Assembly (NCBI GenBank): GCA_947453475.1
Contig: CANGGK010000012.1
Span: forward strand, 1-32,512
Direction of reading: 5' to 3'
DNA length: 32,512 nucleotides
DNA from: Microbacteriaceae bacterium
GTDB taxonomy: Bacteria > Actinomycetota > Actinomycetes > Actinomycetales > Microbacteriaceae
In this document: positions 2,155-14,141 of the stretch, one piece after another
Layout: every line of letters starts with the position of its first letter
Position numbering within the stretch: the stretch's first letter is position 1
Translations under genes and position numbers: made by a program
Notes under the pieces: model-generated
Seen by the model: the letters and a program-made list of their open reading frames with translations, nothing else
Told to the model about the DNA's origin: nothing
The model's database searches: none

Positions 2155-2922
2155 CTACTTTACAAAGTTTGCTTTGTTGGAAGCTCTGCGGAGTGTGGAA
2201 AGAATGGCTTTTCCGGTCACGGCAATCACAAGGGCCGTCGTTGCAGCTCGGCCGGCATCCCAGAGCAATCCACCGGTGAAGATTTCATACTTGAAAAAGC
2301 GAGCCAGATTTTCGGAAAGTGGAGCACCTAAAAGGTAGGAGACGCTGCTTGAGGCACCGGCAAGATACGGCCAGTTCCACATTGTCATCAATGCACCATA
2401 GGCAAAACTCGCGATAACTCCATAAGTGGCCAAGAGCGCTATCTCTAATCTGCTCGAGGGCTTCGTCGATGTGAATCTGCGAAGTGCTCCGGCCCCAATG
2501 CCAACCAAGCCGGCCGCCATCATCTGAAAGGGTAGCCAGGGCCCCACACCTGCGCCGAGTAGCGCCGAAACCAATAGTGACCCAGCGCCAAGGATGAAGC
2601 CGAAACCCGAACCAAACACATAGGCACCGAGAATAATCAGGAAGAACGCCGTTTCAATCCCAGAAACACCAGCGCCAAGAAGTCGAATCACTGAATTTAG
2701 TGCGATTAGGAGGCCCAAAACTGCAAGTTGCCTTGCCCCCAACTTGCCCGAGCCAAATTCAACCAGTAGCACGGCAAGCAGCAGCGGCATCAGAGCAATG
2801 AAAGTACCCTGGGCAAGGGCTGACTGGCTGGGCTGTGAAATTATCAGCGGCCACAGAAAAATGAGAACTGACGCGCTGCTTGCGATGCCGACAGTAAAGA
2901 ATGAACCGAGGTTAGTTTTCAA
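2155..2922 (-). CDS. ECF transporter S component (predicted corrinoid-specific)
   Basis: This is a hydrophobic protein of about 255 residues with roughly six or more membrane helices and small-residue-rich segments typical of ECF substrate-binding (S) components. It is the last gene of the operon, after EcfT and the fused ATPase, so it would set substrate specificity. The upstream cobalamin riboswitch makes vitamin B12 or a related corrinoid the best prediction. I cannot assign it to CbrT by sequence alone. The start chosen is TTG at 2922, placed 7 nt after GAGGGG and overlapping the ATPase gene by 11 nt. A longer frame from TTG at 2952 adds 10 residues but has no clear ribosome binding site. 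Confidence 0.75.
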   Translation of the reverse strand: MKTNLGSFFTVGIASSASVLIFLWPLIISQPSQSALAQGTFIALMPLLLAVLLVEFGSGKLGARQLAVLGLLIALNSVIRLLGAGVSGIETAFFLIILGAYVFGSGFGFILGAGSLLVSALLGAGVGPWLPFQMMAAGLVGIGAGALRRFTSTKPSSRLEIALLATYGVIASFAYGALMTMWNWPYLAGASSSVSYLLGAPLSENLARFFKYEIFTGGLLWDAGRAATTALVIAVTGKAILSTLRRASNKANFVK

Positions 2923-4246
2923 CAATTCGCCCCTCGCAAAGTTCAATTTCAACTTCAGAGACTTGGGCGGCGAATTCGAGGTCGTGAGTGGCCATGACTA
3001 TCGCGCTACCTTGATTGCGAATGGAATCAAAAATTTCCACAAGCGCGTTCTTGGCTGCCTTGTCGAGCCCGCGCGTCGGTTCATCCAGGATGATCAGACT
3101 GGCACCCTGCGACAACTGAATCGCAATTGCCAATGCAAGCTGCTGACCAGCAGATAGGTCTCTCGGGTGCGTCGCCGGGTCGATGCGCCCGACTAACTGT
3201 TCTAGAAGTGCAGGTGCTCTCAGGGCTGAACGCTCCGCTGATTCTTGTGCTTGGGCAAATTCTGCTGAGATTGATGGCGCATACAGTAGGTCGGCTGCGT
3301 TCTGCGGAACCATGGAGACAGGCACGGCTTGGCTCCAAGCCTCCCGCAGCAGACACCAAAGCAAGCTGGTCTTGCCTGAGCCGTTTTCGCCAGTGATCGC
3401 CGTCAGGGTGCCCGACTTTACATCTAGGTCGGTTGGGTGAAGCACTCTGACACTCGAATATGTTTGAGTCAAACCTCTTGCGGAAATTACTGTTTCGCTA
3501 GCCGCATTGTGTCGATCTCGGGCTTGTTCAATTCTTCGGGCCTGCGAGGCAGATTCGGCGAAATCGGCAACATTGATTCTGGCAAGCGAGCCGTCGATAT
3601 CCAAGGCAATAACCCCATCGACAAAGGGAAGAACGCGCGAGGTGCGGTGTTCACTCAGAAGCACGGTGAACCCCTGGGTTCGAGCAAGGGTTGATAGAAG
3701 TCCGAGAATTCCCAGGGCCCCATCGCCGTCAAGCGCAGAGGTTGGTTCATCGAGCAACAGAATCTTTTGGCCTGCAGCGATTGCCGCACCAATGGCAACA
3801 CGTTGCTGTTGCCCGCCAGACAAGTTTTGAAGAGGGCGTTTCAGTAACCCTGTGAGGCCAAGTGTTTCAGCAACCCAGTTGATCCGCTCGCGCATTAGGG
3901 CGGGGGAGAACCCGAGTTGTTCCATTCCGTAAGCGAGCTCTTCTTCAACGGTATCTGTCGCAAATGCTCCCTCGGGTTGCTGATTCACATAGCCGACTTG
4001 ATGAGCCAATTCGTGCGGTTTCAAACCGGTTGTTTCTTCGCCATTGATCTTTATCGACCCTTTGAGCGTGCCTCCGGTGAAGTTTGGTGCGAGCCCAATC
4101 AGAGTCTTGAGAAGTGTGCTTTTGCCGCTTCCGGTAGGGCCCGTGACAAGAAGAAAATCTCCCTTTCCAATCTCGAGATTGACTCTCTTTAGAACCGCAC
4201 TGTCTTCGGCTGCATACGAAAAGGTCAGGTTATCGATCTTGATCAT
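2912..4246 (-). CDS. ECF transporter ATPase, EcfA1-EcfA2 fused in one chain
   Basis: The 444-residue cytosolic protein contains two ABC ATPase domains. Domain 1 has Walker A GPTGSGKST (36-44), signature LSGGQ (142-146), Walker B LLLDEP (163-168) and switch histidine His200. Domain 2 has Walker A GENGSGKTS (286-294), a variant signature LSAGQ (364-368), Walker B ILDEP (386-390) and His421. ECF importers usually use two separate ATPases, so this fusion supplies both. The start is ATG at 4246, overlapping the EcfT stop by 4 nt (ATGA). The open frame runs upstream to 4423, but that extension lies inside ecfT and has no ABC-type sequence. It would power the B12-type importer encoded here. Confidence 0.88.
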   Translation of the reverse strand: MIKIDNLTFSYAAEDSAVLKRVNLEIGKGDFLLVTGPTGSGKSTLLKTLIGLAPNFTGGTLKGSIKINGEETTGLKPHELAHQVGYVNQQPEGAFATDTVEEELAYGMEQLGFSPALMRERINWVAETLGLTGLLKRPLQNLSGGQQQRVAIGAAIAAGQKILLLDEPTSALDGDGALGILGLLSTLARTQGFTVLLSEHRTSRVLPFVDGVIALDIDGSLARINVADFAESASQARRIEQARDRHNAASETVISARGLTQTYSSVRVLHPTDLDVKSGTLTAITGENGSGKTSLLWCLLREAWSQAVPVSMVPQNAADLLYAPSISAEFAQAQESAERSALRAPALLEQLVGRIDPATHPRDLSAGQQLALAIAIQLSQGASLIILDEPTRGLDKAAKNALVEIFDSIRNQGSAIVMATHDLEFAAQVSEVEIELCEGRIVEN

Positions 4247-5193
4247 CCGAGCCCGCCAAGAATTCCGGTTGTCATTAAGGCAAACGACAAAGCGACTAAG
4301 ACCGAGTCGCGATGGCGCCACGGATGTGTCAGAAACCTGGTTTTTACGTGTTTCACGCTCGAAATTTTGAGCGTTGCGGCGATGCCGGCAAGCCCGATGG
4401 CAAAGCAGGTGCCGGTTGCCCAAGCGTTAGCCGTGGTGAGCAGTAGGTACGAGCCGATAGAAAGCGCAAAAACCGAAATCAACGATGAACTTCTAGCTGC
4501 AAAGCGTTGCCAGGCCGTCATGTTGCCCTGTCTGCCGAACCCCCGGGCATCCATGCTTGCTGCCAGAGTCATCGATCGCTCAAGTGTGTCTTCGAGAACC
4601 GGAACAATGAGCCGACCGAGTCTTGGAGCTTGCCTACCGTGGCCGCGCAATTTTTGGGCCTCACGAATTCGCTTGGCGCTTGCGATCAGTTGAGGTGCCA
4701 GGTTCAGTGCAATAACAAAGGCTGACGCCACCTCATAAAGCGCCCCCGGTGTGTTCTTTAGCAAACGGCGAGGGTTGGCCAGGGTGTTGGCCATGCCGAT
4801 GCTCAATATGATTGCCGACATTCTCAAACCATCGCGCAATGCAAAAATCAGTGCGGTTTGGCTCACATTCCCTAGCAGTTGCAAAGTGCCCAGGTCGCCA
4901 AAATGTAATTCGAGGTTGGGTAGCTGCAACCAAACATCCGTGTTCGTGTTGAAGTTGAAGACGATGCGAAAAACCACTCGGATTGCGATTACTAATAAGC
5001 CGGTGATTAGGTAAAACCTCAGCGACTGCGCCCAGGGCGCTTCGTCGCGGGCTAGCAAAATTATGCCGACCAGGATGAAGTGCAAAATCAAGAGAGTGGC
5101 AATGCTCGAAGTTAACCCTGAGACCACAGCGAAAGCGAGCCCTAGCAGCCAAAGGGCGCCTGGGCTGAATTGATTCGCCTTGAGATGCCTCAC
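4243..5193 (-). CDS. ECF transporter transmembrane component EcfT
   Basis: The 316-residue integral membrane protein has the EcfT plan: hydrophobic N-terminal helices, then a cytoplasmic region with two short coupling motifs. The motifs are AQKLRG (residues 179-184) and the typical MDARGFG (214-220); the Arg-Gly elements contact the EcfA ATPases in known ECF structures. Hydrophobic helices follow. The length exceeds the usual 250-270 residues because of a longer C-terminal region. The start is GTG at 5193, sharing one base with the stop of the DUF4430 gene (TAGTG), and its own stop overlaps the ATPase start. Order and overlaps indicate a single translationally coupled importer. Confidence 0.87.
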   Translation of the reverse strand: MRHLKANQFSPGALWLLGLAFAVVSGLTSSIATLLILHFILVGIILLARDEAPWAQSLRFYLITGLLVIAIRVVFRIVFNFNTNTDVWLQLPNLELHFGDLGTLQLLGNVSQTALIFALRDGLRMSAIILSIGMANTLANPRRLLKNTPGALYEVASAFVIALNLAPQLIASAKRIREAQKLRGHGRQAPRLGRLIVPVLEDTLERSMTLAASMDARGFGRQGNMTAWQRFAARSSSLISVFALSIGSYLLLTTANAWATGTCFAIGLAGIAATLKISSVKHVKTRFLTHPWRHRDSVLVALSFALMTTGILGGLG

Positions 5194-5717
5194 TACTTAC
5201 AGCCTCTTGGTTGCACATCGAATCGCGGTGCCACACTCTCTTGCCCGGCCGCTACCCAAGCCCAACCTTCGTAGGCCGCGCAATCTGGGATGTGCGTTGC
5301 AGCGCCTTGGCCACTTAGGAGCCACCCGCCGCCAAGTTGAATGCTTGTGACGTAGTAAGCCCAGTGCCCTTCGCTATAAGCAGGTGTGTCGGCGCAATCC
5401 TGAGAGGTTTCGGTCGGCCAGCCTTCGATTCTGCATACGAAGCCGGCCGGAAACTGCTGGGTTCCTTGAACGTTCAAATTGGCCAGGGCAAAGAGGTCCC
5501 AGCCGGTGGCGTTACTTTTCACATTCTGCAAATCGAAACTCTGCACCGGCTTACCCGAAGCTTTGCCGAAATCAACCACGAGGGTCACGGACTTCGCATC
5601 TTGAACCGGTGTCTGAATTGAGGGGTTGGCTGTAGGAGCTTTACTGTTCGCGAAAAACCAACCAACGGCTACAAGGGCAATTAGGCCGATCAGCGCGACC
5701 CTTAGCGAATTGCGCAC
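5193..5717 (-). CDS. membrane-anchored DUF4430 / transcobalamin C-terminal-like protein
   Basis: The 174-residue protein has one N-terminal hydrophobic segment (about residues 6-23) and then an extracellular domain. There is no lipobox cysteine, so it is either a membrane anchor or an uncleaved signal. The domain begins with a beta strand VTLVVDFG (44-51), contains FDLQNV and GWDLFALAN, and ends with Trp-rich strands. It has four cysteines (95, 108, 146, 173) that could form two disulfides. This fits DUF4430, which is grouped with the transcobalamin/intrinsic-factor C-terminal beta domain. It starts with GTG only 3 nt after the barrel gene stop. I infer that it caps the ligand held by the barrel protein. 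Confidence 0.72.
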   Translation of the reverse strand: MRNSLRVALIGLIALVAVGWFFANSKAPTANPSIQTPVQDAKSVTLVVDFGKASGKPVQSFDLQNVKSNATGWDLFALANLNVQGTQQFPAGFVCRIEGWPTETSQDCADTPAYSEGHWAYYVTSIQLGGGWLLSGQGAATHIPDCAAYEGWAWVAAGQESVAPRFDVQPRGCK

Positions 5718-5720
5718 GAC

Positions 5721-6731
5721 TTACTTCTGCAAAAGGTTTAGGTAGCTAAGACCCAACAGCGGGGTGAGGCCTTGGGCGGTGGCAAAAACGTCGCCGGCGC
5801 CATTAGACCAAGGCGTTGTCAAACCGCCGTTTGGAGCGACGCGAGTTTTCAACCACGATTGGATGGTCGAAATATTCCCCCCGGCGGCCTTGAGGCCCAT
5901 GGCTGCATAGGCGGTTCCATTGACATCAACATCACCCCAGGCTTCCCAGTGATCGGCACCAACCCAGGTTGCTCGCAGATAGGCACTCGCGCCAACTATT
6001 GCTTTTTGCTCTGCAGATTGCTGCGACTTGCTGGCGGTTCTTTTCGCCAACGACAGCGCTTGAAGCGCAATTCCGGTGGCATCTGCTGAACTCTTGAGAG
6101 TGTCACCGGTTTGATCGGTGCCAAAACCGCCGTCAGGTCGCTCTAATGAAGCCAACTTGAGTGCAACGATGTTGGCCAACTTAGGTTGGTTGTTCGAAGC
6201 CAAGCCAAGTATCGCCCAGGCATAGTCGAAAGTATTGCCGGCTGCCGACGCGATCAACCCGTTGCTTGCAATAGCCCTCTTCAGGTCGGCCACAACTGAA
6301 TTTCGCAGAGGAGCGTTCGGCACCCCGATTGCTGCACTAACAAATAGAAATTTGCCGGCAAGCCCGGGTCTAATGGTTTTGGTCGCGCCTGGCAAGCCCG
6401 ATAACTCAGAAGCATAGGCGTAGTTATAGACAATTGATTTCGAAAGCACCGTAGTGTCGGCAAGGGTTGCCCGAACTGTTGTCATTTGATTGATTAGTTT
6501 TTGACCAGCAGCTTTGCGCTGAAGAATAGCCTCGAGCGTGAAGCCGTAATCGGGGGTTCCTGCGGAGAAGCCATCGATGGTTTTACCGGCGACAAATTTA
6601 TCTGTGAGAAATTTGAGTGAGCTGGCGTATTCGTTGCCAGCCGCGCTGACCGGCGGTATGGAGTGAATTGAAGCGAAAGCCGCAATTAATAGAGCAGCTG
6701 ACACTCGCAACCCAGTTTTTGGTCCAAACAA
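5721..6731 (-). CDS. secreted alpha/alpha-barrel protein, transcobalamin N-domain-like
   Basis: A signal peptide covers about residues 1-31 (hydrophobic SAALLIAAFASI, then PPVSAA). It is followed by repeated helix pairs of the prenyltransferase/squalene-cyclase and transcobalamin barrel type. Repeat motifs include DGFSAGTPDYGFTLEAIL, FDYAWAILGLA, RPDGGFGTDQTGD, VNGTAYAAMGLKAAGG and APNGGLTTPW. There is no Cys/His zinc site or DxDD motif of the enzymes, so binding rather than catalysis is likely. The start chosen is TTG at 6731, with GAAAGG 7 nt upstream, giving 336 residues. The open frame extends to GTG 6881, but that codon lies inside the riboswitch core. First gene of the operon; predicted B12 or corrinoid binder outside the cell. 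Confidence 0.75.
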   Translation of the reverse strand: MFGPKTGLRVSAALLIAAFASIHSIPPVSAAGNEYASSLKFLTDKFVAGKTIDGFSAGTPDYGFTLEAILQRKAAGQKLINQMTTVRATLADTTVLSKSIVYNYAYASELSGLPGATKTIRPGLAGKFLFVSAAIGVPNAPLRNSVVADLKRAIASNGLIASAAGNTFDYAWAILGLASNNQPKLANIVALKLASLERPDGGFGTDQTGDTLKSSADATGIALQALSLAKRTASKSQQSAEQKAIVGASAYLRATWVGADHWEAWGDVDVNGTAYAAMGLKAAGGNISTIQSWLKTRVAPNGGLTTPWSNGAGDVFATAQGLTPLLGLSYLNLLQK

Positions 6732-6738
6732 TTTGGAG

Positions 6739-6744
6739 CCTTTC
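6739..6744 (-). promoter_or_regulatory. ribosome binding site that fixes the TTG start of the barrel gene
   Basis: GAAAGG is 7 nt upstream of TTG 6731. Upstream stretches TTCGC and CCTTCGT can each pair with GCGAAAGG in part. This is a possible route for riboswitch control of translation, but I have not folded it. Confidence 0.5.
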
Positions 6745-6837
6745 GCATAAAGCGATCTGAGTGCGAAGACGAAGGGTATGACACCGTTCGACCCCGACCG
6801 TAGACCTCGACGGTAAATAGGAGTCCTTTGCGAGTTC

Positions 6838-6960
6838 GGCAGGCATTCCGGCTGTCGATTGATCTGAATCACTCGAGTCACGGTTGCGGGTCAGCGCCAG
6901 ATTTCCACTGGCTTCCCCTGCACGATGCAAAAGGCGCTCGGGCACAAGCGCTCGTTAAGG
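6838..6960 (-). promoter_or_regulatory. cobalamin (vitamin B12) riboswitch
   Basis: On the minus strand the conserved cobalamin aptamer is readable in order. A P2-like hairpin comes first (GCGCT/AGCGC), then a small TGCA/TGCA hairpin. The core GGGAAGCCAGTGGAAATC follows with its complement CTGGC, and after it CCCGCAACCGTGA. Next is an arm TCGA-TGAT/ATCA-TCGA with a TCAG loop (6876-6855). The B12 box AGCCGGAATGCCTGCC closes it at 6853-6838. The peripheral arm is short, so it is a compact aptamer. It lies about 107 nt before the first operon start. No terminator hairpin with a U tract is visible, so control of ribosome access is more likely. Confidence 0.9.
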
Positions 6961-7040: not shown

Positions 7041-7171
7041 TACTATTTTTAGTTATCTGTTCTACTTTTCGGGCGTAGAGTGTTTTTCATCACGGGCAAA
7101 GGCGCACGCGTTTCTTGACTCATTTATGTTCAAGATCGGGTTCCGGAGTCCAACCAAAAAGGAGAAACTGT

Positions 7172-9121
7172 ATGAAAGCAACACGCGTATCGCGCGCCTT
7201 GGCTTTGACAGCAGCTACCGCCCTGGCCCTAACCGGCCTGGCTACGGTTGCTATCGCGCCGGCAGACGCCGCAGCAAAGTCAACCCTCATCATTGGTGAC
7301 GGTCTTGGCTGGAGCTCGCTAAACACCGCCAACCCAGACGAGAACTCAGCAGTCAACGCAGACGTTGCCTACCTGACCTCACAGGGATTCTGGTACTACG
7401 ACAGCGCACCTAAGCTGACCCGCAACACTTACTTCGGAACCTACGACATCGTCAAGGGCACCAAGGACTTTGAGGTTAAGTATGTTGTGAAGGCTGGCCA
7501 GACCTGGTCAGACGGTACCCCGATCGACGCAGTCGACCTACTTCTTAGCCACGTCATCTCATCAAGCGGTTACTCAGTAAAGGCCGGCTTGGGCGACCCA
7601 TCTTCAGAAGCTGGTTCAGCTTTCTATTCAGGTGGCTACGGCGGCTCATACGACCACAGCATCGTTGGTAACCCAACTCTTTCAGCTGACCACATGTCAG
7701 TTACCTTGCACTACAGCAAGTTCCAGCCTGACTGGGAAGTTCAGGGTCCTGGAGCATCACCGGTTCACACCCTAGAGGCAATGGCAGACGGCAAGACCGC
7801 TCTTCAGTCAGCTGCTGCTAACAAGGCTTACAAGGCTAAGTTCCTTGCAGACTTCACCAACGCTTACAAGGGTGACAAGGCTGCACAGACTCGCCTAGCT
7901 GCAATCGGTAAGATCTGGACCAACGACTACAACTTTGACTCAGCAGCGTACGACTCAGCCGCTAAGCCTCTAATTGCTGTTAGCAACGGTGCTTACCTTC
8001 TAAAGTCATACAACAACTCGACTCAGACCGTAACTCTGACTCAGAACCCGAAGTACACCTCGGGTCACCCGCTAAGCAAGGTAAACCCAGTAAAGACCAT
8101 TGTTTTCAAGTATGTTCAGGACGGAACCGCTTCGGTTCAGGCTCTGCAGAACGGTGACATCAACCTTTACCAGGGTGCCCCAGGCGCTGCCGGTTACTCA
8201 ACCCTTCAGTCACTTGCCTCTAACAAGTCAATTGGCCTACTAGGTGGAACCTCAGGTACCTACGAGCACATCGACCTCCGCACCGGTAACGGCCCAGGAA
8301 CCACCGATGACTACAACGGTCCATTCGCTTCAAGCCACGGTCAAAAGGGTAAGGACCTTCGCCTAGCATTCTTGCTAGCGTTCCCTCGCTACGCGACCAT
8401 GACCAACCAGCTCAAGCCGTTCAACAGCAAGGCAACCTTGCTGAACTCGAACTTCACTCTTCCTGGTTCGGTTTACTACAAGTCGGTAACTGCTAAGAAC
8501 GGTATTACCACCGCTCAGAGCGTCACCATTGGTGGTAAGAAGTACAGCTACAACTTCAACGTAACTTCAGATGCGCAGCAGACTGCCAATGAAGCAATCG
8601 CTTTGAAGCTTGTTCAGAAGTACTACCCAACCGCATCAGCAACCAACACCCCAGTGAAGATCAACTTGCTTCGCTCGGGCCGTCAGATGCGCGTAGAGAA
8701 CAACGCAGTTATCGTTCAGCACGAAGCAAACGCCGGATTCGAAGTTAGCAACGCGACCACTGCAAACTGGAGCAACCGTCTAAGCGAGAACCAGTTCGAC
8801 GCTGAAGAGTTCGCATGGGTACTAAACAGCGTTACTCAGGATGGCTCAAATGCAAACTACCTAAGCGATGGCGCTAACAACCACACCGGTTGGTACGACA
8901 CCGCTCTAGACAACATTTTGCACAAGCTAGAGAACAAGGCAACCCCTGCTCAGATTGGTACCCTAATGGGCCAGGCTGAGAACCTAATCACCCAGAACGC
9001 CTGGACTTTGCCGATCTACCAGTGGCCACAGGTTACTGCTTTCAGCAAGGGCCTAGTTGGAGTAAAGGCAACCCCTATCTCTCCTACTTACGCATGGAAC
9101 TACTGGGAGTGGCACTTCTAG
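7172..9121 (+). CDS. peptide ABC transporter substrate-binding protein (SBP family 5)
   Basis: The 649-residue secreted protein has a classic Sec signal peptide (about residues 1-34: basic MKATRVSR, hydrophobic core, ADA-type cleavage). There is no lipobox cysteine, which is unusual for a Gram-positive binding protein. The mature part contains the family-5 signature around GQTWSDGTPIDAVDLLLS and later SBP_bac_5 elements. The family binds oligopeptides, dipeptides or, in some members, sugars or nickel. The start is fixed by AAAAAGGAG 6 nt upstream; an open frame from 7115 has no such site. Codon use is strongly biased (Ser TCA, Leu CTA/CTT, Lys AAG), suggesting very high expression. A terminator separates it from its permeases. 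Confidence 0.9.
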   Translation: MKATRVSRALALTAATALALTGLATVAIAPADAAAKSTLIIGDGLGWSSLNTANPDENSAVNADVAYLTSQGFWYYDSAPKLTRNTYFGTYDIVKGTKDFEVKYVVKAGQTWSDGTPIDAVDLLLSHVISSSGYSVKAGLGDPSSEAGSAFYSGGYGGSYDHSIVGNPTLSADHMSVTLHYSKFQPDWEVQGPGASPVHTLEAMADGKTALQSAAANKAYKAKFLADFTNAYKGDKAAQTRLAAIGKIWTNDYNFDSAAYDSAAKPLIAVSNGAYLLKSYNNSTQTVTLTQNPKYTSGHPLSKVNPVKTIVFKYVQDGTASVQALQNGDINLYQGAPGAAGYSTLQSLASNKSIGLLGGTSGTYEHIDLRTGNGPGTTDDYNGPFASSHGQKGKDLRLAFLLAFPRYATMTNQLKPFNSKATLLNSNFTLPGSVYYKSVTAKNGITTAQSVTIGGKKYSYNFNVTSDAQQTANEAIALKLVQKYYPTASATNTPVKINLLRSGRQMRVENNAVIVQHEANAGFEVSNATTANWSNRLSENQFDAEEFAWVLNSVTQDGSNANYLSDGANNHTGWYDTALDNILHKLENKATPAQIGTLMGQAENLITQNAWTLPIYQWPQVTAFSKGLVGVKATPISPTYAWNYWEWHF

Positions 9122-9253: not shown

Positions 9254-10792
9254 ATGCTCGCGTTCATTGGCCGGCGAATAGCCATAAGCTTTTTGATTCT
9301 TTTTGGCTCCAGCTTTCTGGTCTACAACATGGAGGCCATTGCAGGCGACCCGTTAGCGTCACTGGCCGAGAGCAGCGCCAGAAACAAGGCCTACCTAATC
9401 TCTCGCCTCACCGCCCAACTTCAGCTTGACGTTCCGCCTCCAGCCCGCTATTTCATCTGGCTAAAGGGAGTCTTAGGTGTTTTTGTAGGCGACCTAGACT
9501 TCGGCAAAACCCGACAGGGTGGAGCAGTTCTTGAACTTATCGGTTCAGCGGTGCCCGTAACCCTTCGACTAGTTACGGCAGCGACCGTGTTGGCCATCAT
9601 CCTGGGTATTTCAATTGGCGTATTGAGCGCTATTCGCCAGTACTCACGCCTTGACTACTCGATGACCTTTGTATCATTCCTTTTCTTTTCGCTACCGGTT
9701 TTCTGGATCGCTGTTCTTTTGAAGCAGTACTTTGCAATCGGTTTCAACGACTTTCTCGCAGATGGCCAAGTAACCACTCCCTTCATGATTGTGATTCCAC
9801 TGGCGCTCGGTTTGATAATCGCCGGTTTTATCGGAGGAGAGCGCAAGCGATTCTGGATCTCCTACGGTTCGGCGGCTGTCGGACTATTTGCGCTGATTAA
9901 CCTTCTGAACCTCATGAACTGGTTCCAAAACCCAGGGCTTGGCATCGTTTTGGTGTTCCTTTTCTCAGCTGGTGCGGGAATCGTTGTGGCAGGTCTAACA
10001 ATGGGCTTCGACCACAAGATCGCTAGAAACGCCGCTTTGAGCGTTGCGGCTCTAGGCGCGGTGCTTTACGTGCCTTTCAACATGATTCCTGGCCACTGGT
10101 TAAACCTTGGTTTGCTCGCTCTTCTCGGCGTAATAGCAGTGGTCGTCGGCGTGTTCACGGCTGGTTTTTGGGCCAAGGAAGACCGTTCAGCATTGCGTCG
10201 TATCGGTGGTCTAACGGCCTTCATTACTGGCCTGTTTCTGATTGTCGACAAGCTGATGCAAGTCTGGAATCCATACGTAAACTCGGATGCAATCAGCGGC
10301 CGTCCGGTTCCAACAATCAGCGCGGCAAATGACTTGATGGATAGCCACAACTATTGGTGGCAACTGCTCGATGTTTTGCTTCACCTCCTTTTGCCGACTC
10401 TCGGAATCATGCTTATTTCATTTGCTGGTTATGTTCGCTATGCCCGAAGCAGCTTGCTTGAGGTCATGAACATGGACTACATCCGAACTGCCCGTGCAAA
10501 GGGTTTGACCGAGCGCACGGTTGTTGTTCGTCACGCGCTGCGCAATGCGATGATTCCTCTAACCACGCTGATCGCCTTCGACCTATCAGGGCTTATCGGT
10601 GGAGCCTTCATTACCGAGTCAATTTACGGTTGGAAGGGTATGGGAACCATCTTCTTGCAGGCTGTTAGCTCTCAGGACCTGAACCTTTTGATGGGCGTAT
10701 TTTTCTTGACTTCATTCTTGGCGGTGATGGGTAATCTGCTTGCAGACCTTGCCTATTCCGCTCTTGATCCACGCATTCGAATGGGTAAGTAA
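9254..10792 (+). CDS. DppB/OppB-type ABC permease with an extra membrane insert
   Basis: This permease has 512 residues, against about 310-340 usual for DppB. The N-terminal part is standard: RRIAISFLILFGSSF, GDP at 31-33, then four membrane segments up to about residue 165. The C-terminal part carries the ATPase-coupling EAA loop DYIRTARAKGLTERTVVVRHA (409-428 region) and the family end ALDPRIRMGK. Between them, residues about 172-335 form an extra block with roughly five to six hydrophobic helices, including GGERKRFW and GFWAKEDRS cytoplasmic-like turns. The function of the insert is unknown. The start ATG 9254 has a purine-rich AAAAGAG upstream. The next permease begins 2 nt after the stop. 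Confidence 0.88.
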   Translation: MLAFIGRRIAISFLILFGSSFLVYNMEAIAGDPLASLAESSARNKAYLISRLTAQLQLDVPPPARYFIWLKGVLGVFVGDLDFGKTRQGGAVLELIGSAVPVTLRLVTAATVLAIILGISIGVLSAIRQYSRLDYSMTFVSFLFFSLPVFWIAVLLKQYFAIGFNDFLADGQVTTPFMIVIPLALGLIIAGFIGGERKRFWISYGSAAVGLFALINLLNLMNWFQNPGLGIVLVFLFSAGAGIVVAGLTMGFDHKIARNAALSVAALGAVLYVPFNMIPGHWLNLGLLALLGVIAVVVGVFTAGFWAKEDRSALRRIGGLTAFITGLFLIVDKLMQVWNPYVNSDAISGRPVPTISAANDLMDSHNYWWQLLDVLLHLLLPTLGIMLISFAGYVRYARSSLLEVMNMDYIRTARAKGLTERTVVVRHALRNAMIPLTTLIAFDLSGLIGGAFITESIYGWKGMGTIFLQAVSSQDLNLLMGVFFLTSFLAVMGNLLADLAYSALDPRIRMGK

Positions 10793-10794
10793 TC

Positions 10795-11862
10795 ATGACT
10801 GATAACAATTCACCGGCAACCAACGCTGCCGGAACGTCAATCGAAATGAAGGAAACCGCTGGCCTGAGCCAGGGACAGCTTGTTCGCAAGCGCTTTTTTA
10901 GGCACCGCGCTGCCAACATTTCGCTGGCTTACCTTGGGCTAATCATTCTCTTTGTATTTACCGCAGGTGGAATTCACCTCGGCAACAAAGATATGCCAAT
11001 CACTGTTCCTGGTTGGTGGCACCTAACCATCAACGACATGAGTGAGGTGGCAATTAGCCACAGCGATAGCGGCCAGCTTCTTATCGGTGCGCCTACTCTT
11101 GACCTAAACCCTTTCGATGGCAATGGTGTCTCGTTAGGTGCGCACCCATTCGGCCAAGACACCATTGGTCACGATTACTTCGCCTTGGTTATTCGCGGAG
11201 CACAGCAATCAATCATGGTGATGTTGGTCGTGGGCCTCATCGGCGGTTTGATGGGCACCATCATCGGTGCTATCTCTGGCTACTTCCGTGGCGCAACCGA
11301 CTCTATTTTGATGCGATTCACTGACCTCATCATCACCATTCCTACGGTGATTATCGGCTCGGTAATTGGCGCCCGCCTAGGAAACCTAGGTGTGTTCCCA
11401 CTTGCACTATTCCTTGGTTTATTCGCCTGGACCGGATTGGCTCGCCTCGTTCGCGGTGAATTCCTGACCCTTCGTGAACGAGAGTTTGTAGACGCTGCCC
11501 GTGTTGCTGGAGCATCAGCCGGCCGCATTATTTTCAAGCACATTTTGCCAAACGCAATGGGTGTCATTATCGTTTCGGTGACCTTGTTGCTGTCGGGTGC
11601 AATTCTTCTAGAAACCGCACTCAGCTATGTAGGCTTTGGTGTTCAATCGCCAGACGTGTCTCTAGGAACATTGATTAGTCAGTACCAAGACTCATTCCAG
11701 GCGAGCCCATGGTTGTTCTGGTGGCCAGGCTTCTTCATTATTTCGATTGCATTGAGCGTCAACTTCATCGGTGATGGTCTGCGCGACGCGTTCGACCCGC
11801 GTCAGAAGCGCAAGTTGAGCCGTAAAGATCTAGTTCAGGCAAAGCAAATCGAAAAGAACTAG
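10795..11862 (+). CDS. DppC/OppC-type ABC permease
   Basis: The 355-residue membrane permease pairs with the upstream DppB-like subunit. It has the OppC N-terminal region (RKRFFRHRAANISLAYLGL, about residues 31-49), an extracellular stretch, and the conserved GAHPFGQDTIGHDYFA segment. The transmembrane core contains the EAA loop EREFVDAARVAGASAGRIIF (about residues 225-245). The C-terminus has GDGLRDAFDPRQ, also typical. The start is ATG, 2 nt after the previous stop. Its TAG stop lies in a CTAG palindrome that is also the stop of the opposite-strand gene. The ATPase gene follows only after that intervening gene. Confidence 0.92.
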   Translation: MTDNNSPATNAAGTSIEMKETAGLSQGQLVRKRFFRHRAANISLAYLGLIILFVFTAGGIHLGNKDMPITVPGWWHLTINDMSEVAISHSDSGQLLIGAPTLDLNPFDGNGVSLGAHPFGQDTIGHDYFALVIRGAQQSIMVMLVVGLIGGLMGTIIGAISGYFRGATDSILMRFTDLIITIPTVIIGSVIGARLGNLGVFPLALFLGLFAWTGLARLVRGEFLTLREREFVDAARVAGASAGRIIFKHILPNAMGVIIVSVTLLLSGAILLETALSYVGFGVQSPDVSLGTLISQYQDSFQASPWLFWWPGFFIISIALSVNFIGDGLRDAFDPRQKRKLSRKDLVQAKQIEKN

Positions 11863-12434
11863 ATATGCAAATCCACGTAAGCCAGTATCAAAATGGCAAT
11901 AAGACAAGCAAGGCCCAGCCAGTTTGCGCTGAGTCGAACTTTCTTTGTCTGTGCCGTGTTGTTGGCTCGAAGCTCTTCAAACTGCCAGTAGGCGCTGCCC
12001 GATTCGGAACTATGGATGAGCCCGGGTTCAACAAATTCGAAGTTTTCCAGGCCAGAACCCTTGAGGTCGTCTCTGGTAAGTCGGCGCACTTCTCGTCGGC
12101 TTGGGGCAGGAGCCGACCAGGAAACGAACTTCTTGCCTTCGGTAACGAAAGCCAAGCCAAACTTGGTCTCGAAGCCCTTGATTGCACCCCAGTCTGCGCG
12201 GAAGATTCGAAGCGGGTTCGTTACAACGACCTGACCCTCATCGAAAGCAATCTTTGGGTTGACGAAGAAGAGCCAAACCGCAAGATCAATCACGGCAAGC
12301 GAGCAAATCAAGCTCGGCAGGTACACCCAGCTTCCGGTGAAAATCACCGGAACGATGGCCAACAAATTTACGATTACAGCGCCAATCGAGGCGTAAAGGC
12401 TGACCTTAGGTCGAATAGTAGTCACAAGTTCCAT
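11859..12434 (-). CDS. membrane protein with bacterial PH-like domain, inside the importer cluster
   Basis: The protein has about 191 residues with two N-terminal membrane helices (about residues 13-33 and 37-57) and one C-terminal helix (about 172-190). A soluble domain lies between them, with strands such as PKIAFDEGQVVVTNPLRIFRADW and GLAFVTEGKKFVSWSA. This resembles the small actinobacterial membrane proteins annotated with a bacterial PH domain. The function is unknown. It is transcribed against the importer genes, and its TAG stop overlaps the DppC stop. The start chosen is ATG 12434; GTG 12443 is an alternative that adds three residues. Neither has a well-spaced ribosome binding site. 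Confidence 0.6.
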   Translation of the reverse strand: MELVTTIRPKVSLYASIGAVIVNLLAIVPVIFTGSWVYLPSLICSLAVIDLAVWLFFVNPKIAFDEGQVVVTNPLRIFRADWGAIKGFETKFGLAFVTEGKKFVSWSAPAPSRREVRRLTRDDLKGSGLENFEFVEPGLIHSSESGSAYWQFEELRANNTAQTKKVRLSANWLGLACLIAILILAYVDLHI

Positions 12435-12485
12435 TATCTCCACTCACAAGCTTCAAAGGCACTCAAGATGCGCGAGGAAATCTAA

Positions 12486-14141
12486 ATGAACGACAAGCAG
12501 ACTGCCGTACTTCAGGTTGAAAACTACAACCTAGACTTTTGGGTCGACGGTGAATGGTATCCGGCCGCTATCGACATGAACTATTCGATTCAGGCTGGCC
12601 AGGTGCTTGCCATTGTTGGCGAGTCGGGATCGGGCAAATCATCGTCTTCGATGGGCTTGATGGGTCTATTGGCTTCAAATGCTCGTGTAAACGGCAGCGT
12701 TCGAATCAAGGGCGAAGAGATGCTCGGCGCCAGTGCGGCAACTCTACGCAAGTTCCGCGGCAAGGAAGTGGCGTACATCTTCCAAGAACCGATGACCGCT
12801 TTGAACCCCGTGTACACGATTGGTTTTCAAATCATCGAAACACTGCGAGCTCACTTTGACATCTCTTCGGATGAAGCACGCGCTCGAGCCATCGCGCTGA
12901 TCAAGCTGGTAGAAATTCCAGACCCAGAAACTTCGGTAGACAAGTACCCTCACCAGCTTTCTGGCGGTCAGCGTCAGCGCGCAATGATTGCCCAGGCTCT
13001 GGCATGTGACCCGGGCTTGTTGATTGCCGACGAGCCAACCACGGCGCTTGACGTTACCGTTCAAGCTGAAATTCTCGACTTGATGCGAAACCTGAAGCAC
13101 AAGCTCAATTCTGCTGTGCTACTGATTACCCATGACATGGGTGTGGTTGCCGACATGGCAGACCAGATTCTTGTCATGAAAGATGGGTTGACCGTCGAAT
13201 ACGACACAGCAGACAACATCTTTAATCGCCCGAAGCACCCTTATACCCAGGCCTTGCTTGCGGCGGTGCCAAAGTTGGGTTCTGTAGCCGTTCGTGAACT
13301 TAGCTTTGACTCCGGCAGTAAGCCTGAGCCTGTTCTTAAGCTTGAAAACGTAACCATTGAGTATCCAAAGCGTGGTCGTGCCCCAGCATTCAAGGCTGTT
13401 CAGGACTTCAGTCTTGAAATTTACCCTGGCGAAATCGTCGGACTCGTCGGTGAGTCGGGCTCGGGTAAAACGACCATCGGTCGCGCATCGATTGGCTTGT
13501 TGCCGATTAAGGAAGGCACCATCTCGGTTGCCGGAAACGACATCAGCAACGCAAACATGAAGTCGCTTTCACTTATTCGCCGCCACACCGGAATCGTCTT
13601 CCAAGACCCGGCCTCATCGTTGAACCCTCGTTTGCCGATTGGCGAGAGCATCGGCGAGCCGATATTCCTAGCTGGTCTAGCCAAGGGTGATGAGTTGCAC
13701 CGCCGAGTCGAAGATCTACTCGATTCGGTGGAGCTACCACGCAGCTACCGCAACCGCTACCCTCACGAGCTTTCGGGCGGGCAGCGTCAGCGCATTGGAA
13801 TCGCCCGCGCTTTGGCTCTGACCCCAGATCTGCTAATCGCTGACGAACCAACCTCTGCTCTTGACGTATCTGTTCAGGCGAGATTCCTCGACCTACTGCA
13901 GGGGCTTCAAGAGCAGTTGAAGTTTGCCTGTTTGTTCATCACTCACGACCTTGCCGTTGTCGACATCTTGTCGCACCGAATCGCCGTGATGCAGAACGGG
14001 CGACTGGTCGAGCAGGGTCCAAGAGACCAGATTCTCAAGAACCCTAAGGATCCTTACACCCAACGTCTCATCGAAGCCGTTCCGGTTCCTGACCCTGCAG
14101 AGCAAAAGCGTCGCCGCGAGGCGCGCTTAGCAGCCAAGTAA
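12486..14141 (+). CDS. DppD-DppF fused peptide ABC transporter ATPase
   Basis: The 551-residue protein contains two complete ABC ATPase domains of the oligopeptide type. Domain 1 has Walker A GESGSGKSS, signature LSGGQRQRAMIA and Walker B LLIADEPTTALD. Domain 2 has GESGSGKTT, LSGGQRQRIGIA and LLIADEPTSALD. Each ends with the OppD/OppF C-terminal extension (HPYTQALLAAVP and DPYTQRLIEAVP). It energises the permease pair at 9254-11862. The start ATG 12486 is supported by GAGGAAAT. A 623-nt stretch holding the opposite-strand membrane protein separates it from dppC-like, so it may need read-through or its own promoter. Confidence 0.93.
   Translation: MNDKQTAVLQVENYNLDFWVDGEWYPAAIDMNYSIQAGQVLAIVGESGSGKSSSSMGLMGLLASNARVNGSVRIKGEEMLGASAATLRKFRGKEVAYIFQEPMTALNPVYTIGFQIIETLRAHFDISSDEARARAIALIKLVEIPDPETSVDKYPHQLSGGQRQRAMIAQALACDPGLLIADEPTTALDVTVQAEILDLMRNLKHKLNSAVLLITHDMGVVADMADQILVMKDGLTVEYDTADNIFNRPKHPYTQALLAAVPKLGSVAVRELSFDSGSKPEPVLKLENVTIEYPKRGRAPAFKAVQDFSLEIYPGEIVGLVGESGSGKTTIGRASIGLLPIKEGTISVAGNDISNANMKSLSLIRRHTGIVFQDPASSLNPRLPIGESIGEPIFLAGLAKGDELHRRVEDLLDSVELPRSYRNRYPHELSGGQRQRIGIARALALTPDLLIADEPTSALDVSVQARFLDLLQGLQEQLKFACLFITHDLAVVDILSHRIAVMQNGRLVEQGPRDQILKNPKDPYTQRLIEAVPVPDPAEQKRRREARLAAK

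Follow-up and report, generated by a model that had tools for sequence, protein, structure and literature searches.

We describe an operon in a 32,512-nucleotide stretch of DNA from a Microbacteriaceae bacterium (contig CANGGK010000012.1 of assembly GCA_947453475.1; this whole stretch is called the window), in which a cobalamin riboswitch precedes five coupled genes, here named B, D, T, A and S. The operon probably encodes a group I energy-coupling factor (ECF) importer for cobalamin or another corrinoid, fed by a two-protein extracellular trap that would amount to a split transcobalamin and is predicted to bind the ligand. We put the probability of this reading at about 0.8. It draws on the riboswitch and gene order, the kinship of S with the B12 transporter component CbrT, the fold resemblance of B plus D to transcobalamin, natural fusions of B and D, and the B12 need of the hosts.

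Operon structure and riboswitch

Neighbouring genes overlap at D/T, T/A and A/S, and B and D share one reading frame with a stop and one codon between them (Table 1). T, two ATPase domains and S are encoded together, as in group I ECF transporters. We compared the window with the loci of six relatives (three Microbacteriaceae metagenome-assembled genomes, one Rhodoluna, one Micrococcales and one Actinomycetota). The full order B-D-T-A-S is present in five of them; the sixth, L005, stops inside D at a contig end.

Table 1. Predicted features of the operon, from the riboswitch downstream (positions are those of the window)
Feature	Positions	Strand	Evidence
Cobalamin (AdoCbl-II type) riboswitch aptamer	6833..6933	-	RF01689 35.7 bits, RF00174 27.4 bits, compensatory pairs in seven leaders
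Expression platform: conserved hairpin, then helix pairing the ribosome-binding site GCGAAAGG (6739-6746)	6732..6832	-	Alignment and consensus fold of seven leaders
B: secreted alpha/alpha-barrel (toroid) protein, 336 amino acids, TTG start, signal-peptide-like N terminus	5721..6731	-	
D: membrane-anchored transcobalamin-type beta protein, 174 amino acids, related to the SCO2322 and DUF4430 families	5193..5717	-	
T: EcfT transmembrane component, CbiQ family	4243..5193	-	PF02361, E 7e-11
A: fused EcfA-EcfA' ATPase, two ABC domains	2912..4246	-	PF00005 in two stretches, E 1.4e-45
S: CbrT-related substrate-binding S component	2155..2952	-	76-protein profile against CbrT (6FNP chain A), E 2.9e-15; six hydrophobic segments

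The original prediction, made from the letters and their open reading frames (ORFs), had placed a cobalamin riboswitch ahead of the five genes. Sequence comparison confirmed this at the same positions, and the element is predicted to sense cobalamin. Against RF01689 the aptamer scored 35.7 bits, where the gathering score is 36.5, and a search of 501 bases gave it E 8e-7. Against RF00174 it scored 27.4 bits (gathering score 31.5; E 2.6e-5), and nothing else in the window's genome matches RF00174 at E ≤ 0.001. We call the window's leader a cobalamin riboswitch because homologous leaders pass an Rfam gathering score (four of the six relatives), not through its own score. Of the 16 pairs predicted in the aptamer, 5 have both partners substituted in one or more of the seven leaders, and over the whole leader this holds for 10 of 46 pairs. 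The last helix pairs the ribosome-binding site; one leader of the seven cannot form this helix at five positions. The presence of this helix across the alignment makes it likely that the riboswitch controls the operon at the level of translation.

Two start codons required a choice. For B, a start at 6881 (a 386-amino-acid ORF, 5721-6881) was rejected in favour of 6731, because the longer ORF runs into the riboswitch and the relatives' start codon lies shortly downstream of the conserved GCGAAAGG. For A, whose ORF is open to 4423, the ATG at 4246 was picked by analogy with locus L003.

The S component is related to CbrT

The transporter genes bear out what had been proposed for them, namely EcfT, a fused EcfA1-A2 and an S component. 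T belongs to PF02361 (CbiQ), and two ABC ATPase domains are found in A; matches of A to TIGR04520 and TIGR04521 stay below their cut-offs. In the window, B, D and S have no Pfam match above the cut-off of the family concerned, and their labels are taken from wider families. ECF_trnsprt is matched by 55 of the 76 members of the S family, the window's own S not being among them.

A profile of the 76 S proteins, searched against 177,635 distinct PDB sequences, gave one significant match, with an E-value of 2.9e-15 to chain A of 6FNP; the two entries that followed, which include a protein labelled as a folate S component, had E-values of 0.45 and 0.65. 6FNP is described as the ECF-CbrT vitamin B12 transporter (PMC5997447), and chain A is judged, from the profile match itself, to be its CbrT S component. 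A narrower profile, of six close relatives, found no PDB match. The kinship of the window's S with CbrT, an S component proven for B12, is well supported by these comparisons, and the firm grouping of S with another vitamin that would have spoken against a B12 importer was not seen.

If S served folate or riboflavin instead, the riboswitch would be incidental. Some members of the S family do match the folate model TIGR04518 (11 of 76, best 2.7e-7) or the riboflavin S family PF07155 (20 of 76, best 1.9e-11). However, the window's S reaches 18.2 of the 60 bits required by TIGR04518, the PDB profile search parts CbrT clearly from the entries after it, and a riboswitch lies directly upstream in at least 24 of 40 S-selected stretches across the phylum (described below). 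We therefore regard service to another vitamin as highly improbable.

The extracellular proteins B and D

B had been described as a secreted barrel and D as a membrane-anchored DUF4430 protein. A hydropathy scan found one N-terminal hydrophobic segment in each, and B falls in the toroid family, so that this part of the description stands. The DUF4430 label does not hold for the window's own D (see below): PF14478 matched 3 of the 50 D family members at E ≤ 0.001 (best 4.6e-18), and at the same threshold the NCBIfam family SCO2322 (NF040672) matched 38 of the 50. The window's D scored 28.6 bits against NF040672 (E 1.6e-6), under the cut-off of 85 bits. The DUF4430 domain is reported from the C-terminal region of transcobalamins (PMC4350170). 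The 39-row alignment A4 excludes permuted-looking barrels, and the 50-row alignment A5 excludes permuted-looking D proteins, the clade with fused T and A, and some second copies of D.

Among the 39 B members, 18 match SQHop_cyclase_C and 9 match Prenyltrans. Squalene-hopene cyclases are the strongest sequence kin of the wide B profile in the PDB (3e-44). The acid motif of class II cyclases is DxDD; it is not present in the window's B and occurs in 5 of the 39 members, at positions that are not all alike.

Because B and D lie in the same frame, only a stop and one codon apart, we modelled them as a single chain of 512 residues, with the stop read as glycine and an unpaired 12-row alignment. In a Foldseek search of 350,542 PDB chains, the top three matches to this model were intrinsic factor (3kq4_A, 2.8e-5) and the transcobalamins 2v3n (6.2e-5) and 2bb6_A (9.3e-5), with alignments of 441-494 columns. 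Cyclases ranked below these, the best at 2.1e-4. The idea that the two halves of transcobalamin are separate genes here is supported by this ranking and by natural B-D fusions. Transcobalamin itself is one chain; B and D are two genes in the window, and are fused in 5 of 73 related stretches, barrel first in three.

Profiles built from close relatives only found weak matches to cyclases and a catalase (A1) or nothing (A2, A3) in the PDB; wider profiles worked for B and S, not for D. D also matched 21nr_A, "TLP-IPT", with an overall E of 1.8e-4, but we discounted this match, which consists of four repeats with i-Evalues of 77-93 each.

Related loci across the Actinomycetota

The D profile matched 32 of 149 genomes of the order, and the S profile 71 of 198 genomes of the phylum. 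The first search yielded 33 stretches from 31 genomes (the window's own excluded), in which D is present by construction, and the second 40 stretches from 38 of the 71 matching genomes. The other 33 S-matching genomes are the window's own, G005 and G017 (already in the order set), G253, G338, G272 and G187 (strong matches near contig ends), and 26 at E 2.6e-23 or weaker; four as weak as these (G331, G225, G257 and G201) were taken in. All 73 stretches were searched with iterated profiles, combined with RF00174 matches at E ≤ 0.01. Riboswitch counts are lower bounds, as 49-58 first-look candidates were scored per genome where more existed.

Among the 40 S-selected stretches, D was found in 31, B in 28 and an RF00174 match in at least 28; at least six (L104, L122, L126, L133, L134 and L135) are clipped by contig ends. 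In at least 24 of the 40, no more than 471 bases separate the riboswitch from the first detected gene, which lies downstream on the same strand: 23 of these are on the T-A-S strand, and one precedes a divergent B-D pair. The gene-order survey that had been suggested as a check came out in favour of the linkage, both in this set and in the relatives with the whole order. Across all 73 stretches, a riboswitch was found in at least 49, B in 38 and D in 64, and at least 32 of the 38 stretches with B have a riboswitch. For 45 of the 49 riboswitches found, the first detected gene on the riboswitch's strand lies no more than 471 bases downstream. In 44 of these cases the riboswitch stands ahead of the transporter operon or the upstream end of that operon, and in L131 it stands ahead of a divergently oriented B-D pair. 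The riboswitches of L137-L140 are 2.8-6.5 kb upstream, and their link to the operon is therefore weaker.

B and D occupy a single reading frame in five of the 73 stretches, in the order B-D in L102, L118 and L124 and D-B in L038 and L040, where the contig ends before any T-A-S. The fusions of L118 and L124 have a hydrophobic segment near each end. In both of these loci the fusion is preceded by an extra ORF with weak similarity to D (E 5e-4 in L118, 6e-5 in L124) that overlaps or follows the riboswitch. In L102 the fusion runs on for about 300 residues that, by impression, resemble cell-wall-binding repeats.

T and A are fused in nine loci (L045, L046, L048, L050, L051, L055, L060, L064 and L068), which form one clade with 100/100 support; they come from genomes of the same taxonomic order as the window, the fusion is a single reading frame, and in five it extends to S. 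As far as the sequences indicate, this clade may have changed its ligand or its regulation.

Barrel matches in L107 and L111-L116 have the second half first, as if circularly permuted, and D appears likewise in some of these and in other loci. For the barrel this is uncertain, because its internal repeats could yield the same signal. Two genomes have two S loci each, G252 (L103 and L107) and G315 (L101 and L111), one locus of each with a permuted-looking barrel. A division of labour between corrinoids is possible in these genomes.

B12 physiology of the hosts

We searched the window's genome and those of the six relatives for B12-related proteins. Each of the seven encodes one protein with a B12-binding domain; the one in the window's genome, where the protein was typed, is MetH (TIGR02082, 1407 bits against a cut-off of 1010.85). 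Neither the MetE N-terminal family nor CbiC was found in any of the seven, and no FecCD (BtuC-type) permease reached its cut-off; the BtuM and BacA/Rv1819c importer types were not searched. As controls, the B12-binding, MetE, CbiC and FecCD searches matched 12, 10, 7 and 13 of 14 named genomes, respectively. Given the lack of CbiC in all seven, the corrin-making pathway is probably missing. By this gene content the host requires B12 and apparently does not make it, and among the importer types covered, the B-D-T-A-S operon is the predicted importer found. Together with the riboswitch and the kinship of S with CbrT, this host picture supports the interpretation of the operon as an importer of B12 or a corrinoid.

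Two other substrates deserve consideration. B12 riboswitches commonly control the import of cobalt, and T belongs to the CbiQ Pfam family, as would be expected of a cobalt importer of the CbiMNQO kind. Against this, S groups with CbrT, and the Pfam and NCBIfam searches matched none of the S families for metals; moreover, CbiC was found in none of the seven genomes, so that B12 synthesis offers no evident use for the cobalt. We see only a very slight chance that the operon imports cobalt. The other candidate is a B12 precursor or degradation product, such as cobinamide or other corrinoids, rather than complete cobalamin. CbrT is reported to carry cobinamide too (PMC5997447), and the beta domain of transcobalamin reportedly binds first while the alpha domain selects (PMC11107200), so that a split pair might be tolerant. 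CbiC was found in none of the seven genomes (late salvage genes were not searched), which counts against a precursor as the main substrate, and we consider it unlikely.

Points against the reading

Several results weigh against a riboswitch-controlled corrinoid importer with a two-protein trap. The window's aptamer misses the gathering scores of both RF01689 and RF00174, and a gathering-level Rfam search of the window returned no match. D of the window has no match to PF14478 at E ≤ 0.1, and the wide D profile found no transcobalamin in the PDB. The joint model of B and D has low overall confidence (mean predicted local distance difference test score, pLDDT, 65.6; predicted TM-score, pTM, 0.58): the barrel is mostly confident, and the second half of D is under 50. 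The proposed comparison with transcobalamin was borne out in its fold ranking and not in its geometry, since the query TM-scores of 0.32-0.36 and the root-mean-square deviation of about 24 Å mean that the relative placement of the two domains is not reproduced and the cleft itself is not predicted. Modelled alone, D (pLDDT 72.9) matches nothing in the PDB at E ≤ 0.001; the transcobalamins at ranks 2, 10, 11, 12 and 19 (E 0.27-1.1), below a ubiquitin-like protein, are a hint only. Both models place short strands after a helix in D, at low confidence.

The survey and the host genomes add to these points. Sixteen loci have a riboswitch, D, T, A and S with no B detected. The nine loci with fused T and A keep D and S, with no B detected and no RF00174 match in their genomes among the candidates scored. 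B is therefore not indispensable everywhere. The genomes of the host survey are partial, the window's (G000) being 82.8% complete, and two of the seven have sub-threshold FecCD matches; the agreement of the seven nevertheless makes the host picture firm despite this completeness.

A B12 ECF importer with no transcobalamin-like trap would accommodate some of these results. The barrel would then act elsewhere, for example as an enzyme or a wall protein, and D would be an accessory subunit of the transporter. This would fit the 16 loci with no B detected, the squalene-hopene cyclases as the strongest PDB sequence kin of B, and the failure of the joint model to predict a two-domain cleft. It fits poorly with the existence of B-D fusions in both orders, with the rank of intrinsic factor and transcobalamin above the cyclases in the fold search, and with the distribution of DxDD. 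We judge a trap-less importer to be quite unlikely, set aside a terpene cyclase reading of B as well, and continue with the split transcobalamin.

Neighbouring genes

A divergent gene at 7115-9121 encodes a family 5 solute-binding protein (PF00496) and is followed, at 9254-14141, by apparent peptide-type permease and ATPase genes. The solute-binding protein gene adjoins the riboswitch in L002-L004, and one or two genes intervene in L005-L007. Downstream of S, at 1704-2096, is a gene for a small protein with weak helix-turn-helix matches below the Pfam cut-offs; a similar small protein is encoded near the operon in L004 (13322-13723).

Discussion

A shortage of B12 inside the cell would leave the ribosome-binding site free and allow the operon to be translated. 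We infer that the secreted barrel B and the membrane-anchored D would each take one face of a corrinoid, in a cleft closed by the ligand, which would bridge the two proteins as it does both transcobalamin domains. When separated, the alpha domain and the beta domain of transcobalamin are each reported to bind cobalamin, and to associate in a manner that depends on it (PMC11107200). Tethered at the membrane by D, the loaded complex would hand the corrinoid to the CbrT-like S, and T and the double ATPase A would drive it inward, mainly for MetH.

Animal transcobalamin, intrinsic factor and haptocorrin consist of an extracellular alpha/alpha barrel and a small beta-grasp domain, as B and D together would, and the animal B12 carriers use uptake receptors. 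Whereas the animal carriers are one chain (PMC11107200), the window has two proteins, with D anchored in the membrane and an importer encoded adjacently. In bacteria, Burroughs et al. (2007) described SLBB domains of the transcobalamin type that share a chain with a toroid, which may come before or after them, and whose operons also encode CbiO and CbiQ; they noted that the host organisms usually are without key B12 synthesis enzymes, proposed B12 scavenging, and gave the range of the clade as low-GC Gram-positives, planctomycetes and, less often, euryarchaea (PMC1796856). A toroid and, by prediction, a beta-grasp domain beside CbiO and CbiQ are common to both systems. The window differs in that its pair is split, comes from an actinobacterium and follows a riboswitch; neither "riboswitch" nor "Streptomyces" appears as a word in the main text of that paper. 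The general idea of B12 scavenging by bacterial toroid/beta-grasp proteins near CbiO/CbiQ has thus been in print since 2007, as a prediction only as far as we have seen, and part of what the original prediction left open is answered. Our searches of an open-licence library turned up no description of the pair as two proteins, of its occurrence with the riboswitch across the Actinomycetota, or of the kinship of the S family with CbrT.

Among experimentally known transporters, ECF-CbrT of Lactobacillus delbrueckii has an S component homologous to that of the window, and the ECF module is common to both (PMC5997447). It is reported as a group II transporter with a shared module, whereas the window has a dedicated module in one operon, and no external binding proteins are mentioned in the available text of that paper. 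Riboswitch-led ECF modules of acI actinobacteria, likewise freshwater organisms without B12 synthesis, have been proposed as cobalamin transporters by Kang et al. (2017; PMC5301498), with no extracellular barrel or beta proteins mentioned in the available text. The Bacteroides B12 lipoproteins belong to a Gram-negative outer-membrane system. They are reported to capture B12 at the surface before import (PMC6143338), as is proposed here.

On balance, we lean slightly towards a broader view, in which the operon represents an actinobacteria-wide ECF class with a dedicated two-protein trap glued by its ligand. The trap, a free-living and split relative of animal transcobalamin (its precursor or its counterpart), would dock its B12 onto an S component of the CbrT type; textbook ECF transporters, by contrast, have no external binding proteins.

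B12 is scarce in lakes. Freshwater actinobacteria, both acI (PMC5301498) and the hosts of the seven genomes considered here, seem unable to make it, and their uptake route is only predicted. The reading is testable in that Rhodoluna lacicola, whose genus includes the host of L004, is genetically tractable: it is reported to be naturally transformable, and gene inactivation has been published (PMC11577799). If true, a split transcobalamin with an ECF importer would explain B12 uptake in freshwater actinobacteria and would show that external binding proteins can serve an ECF transporter. It would also offer bacterial relatives that allow each half of the animal B12 carrier to be examined on its own, which would bear on the proposal that animals acquired the fused form from bacteria (PMC1796856).

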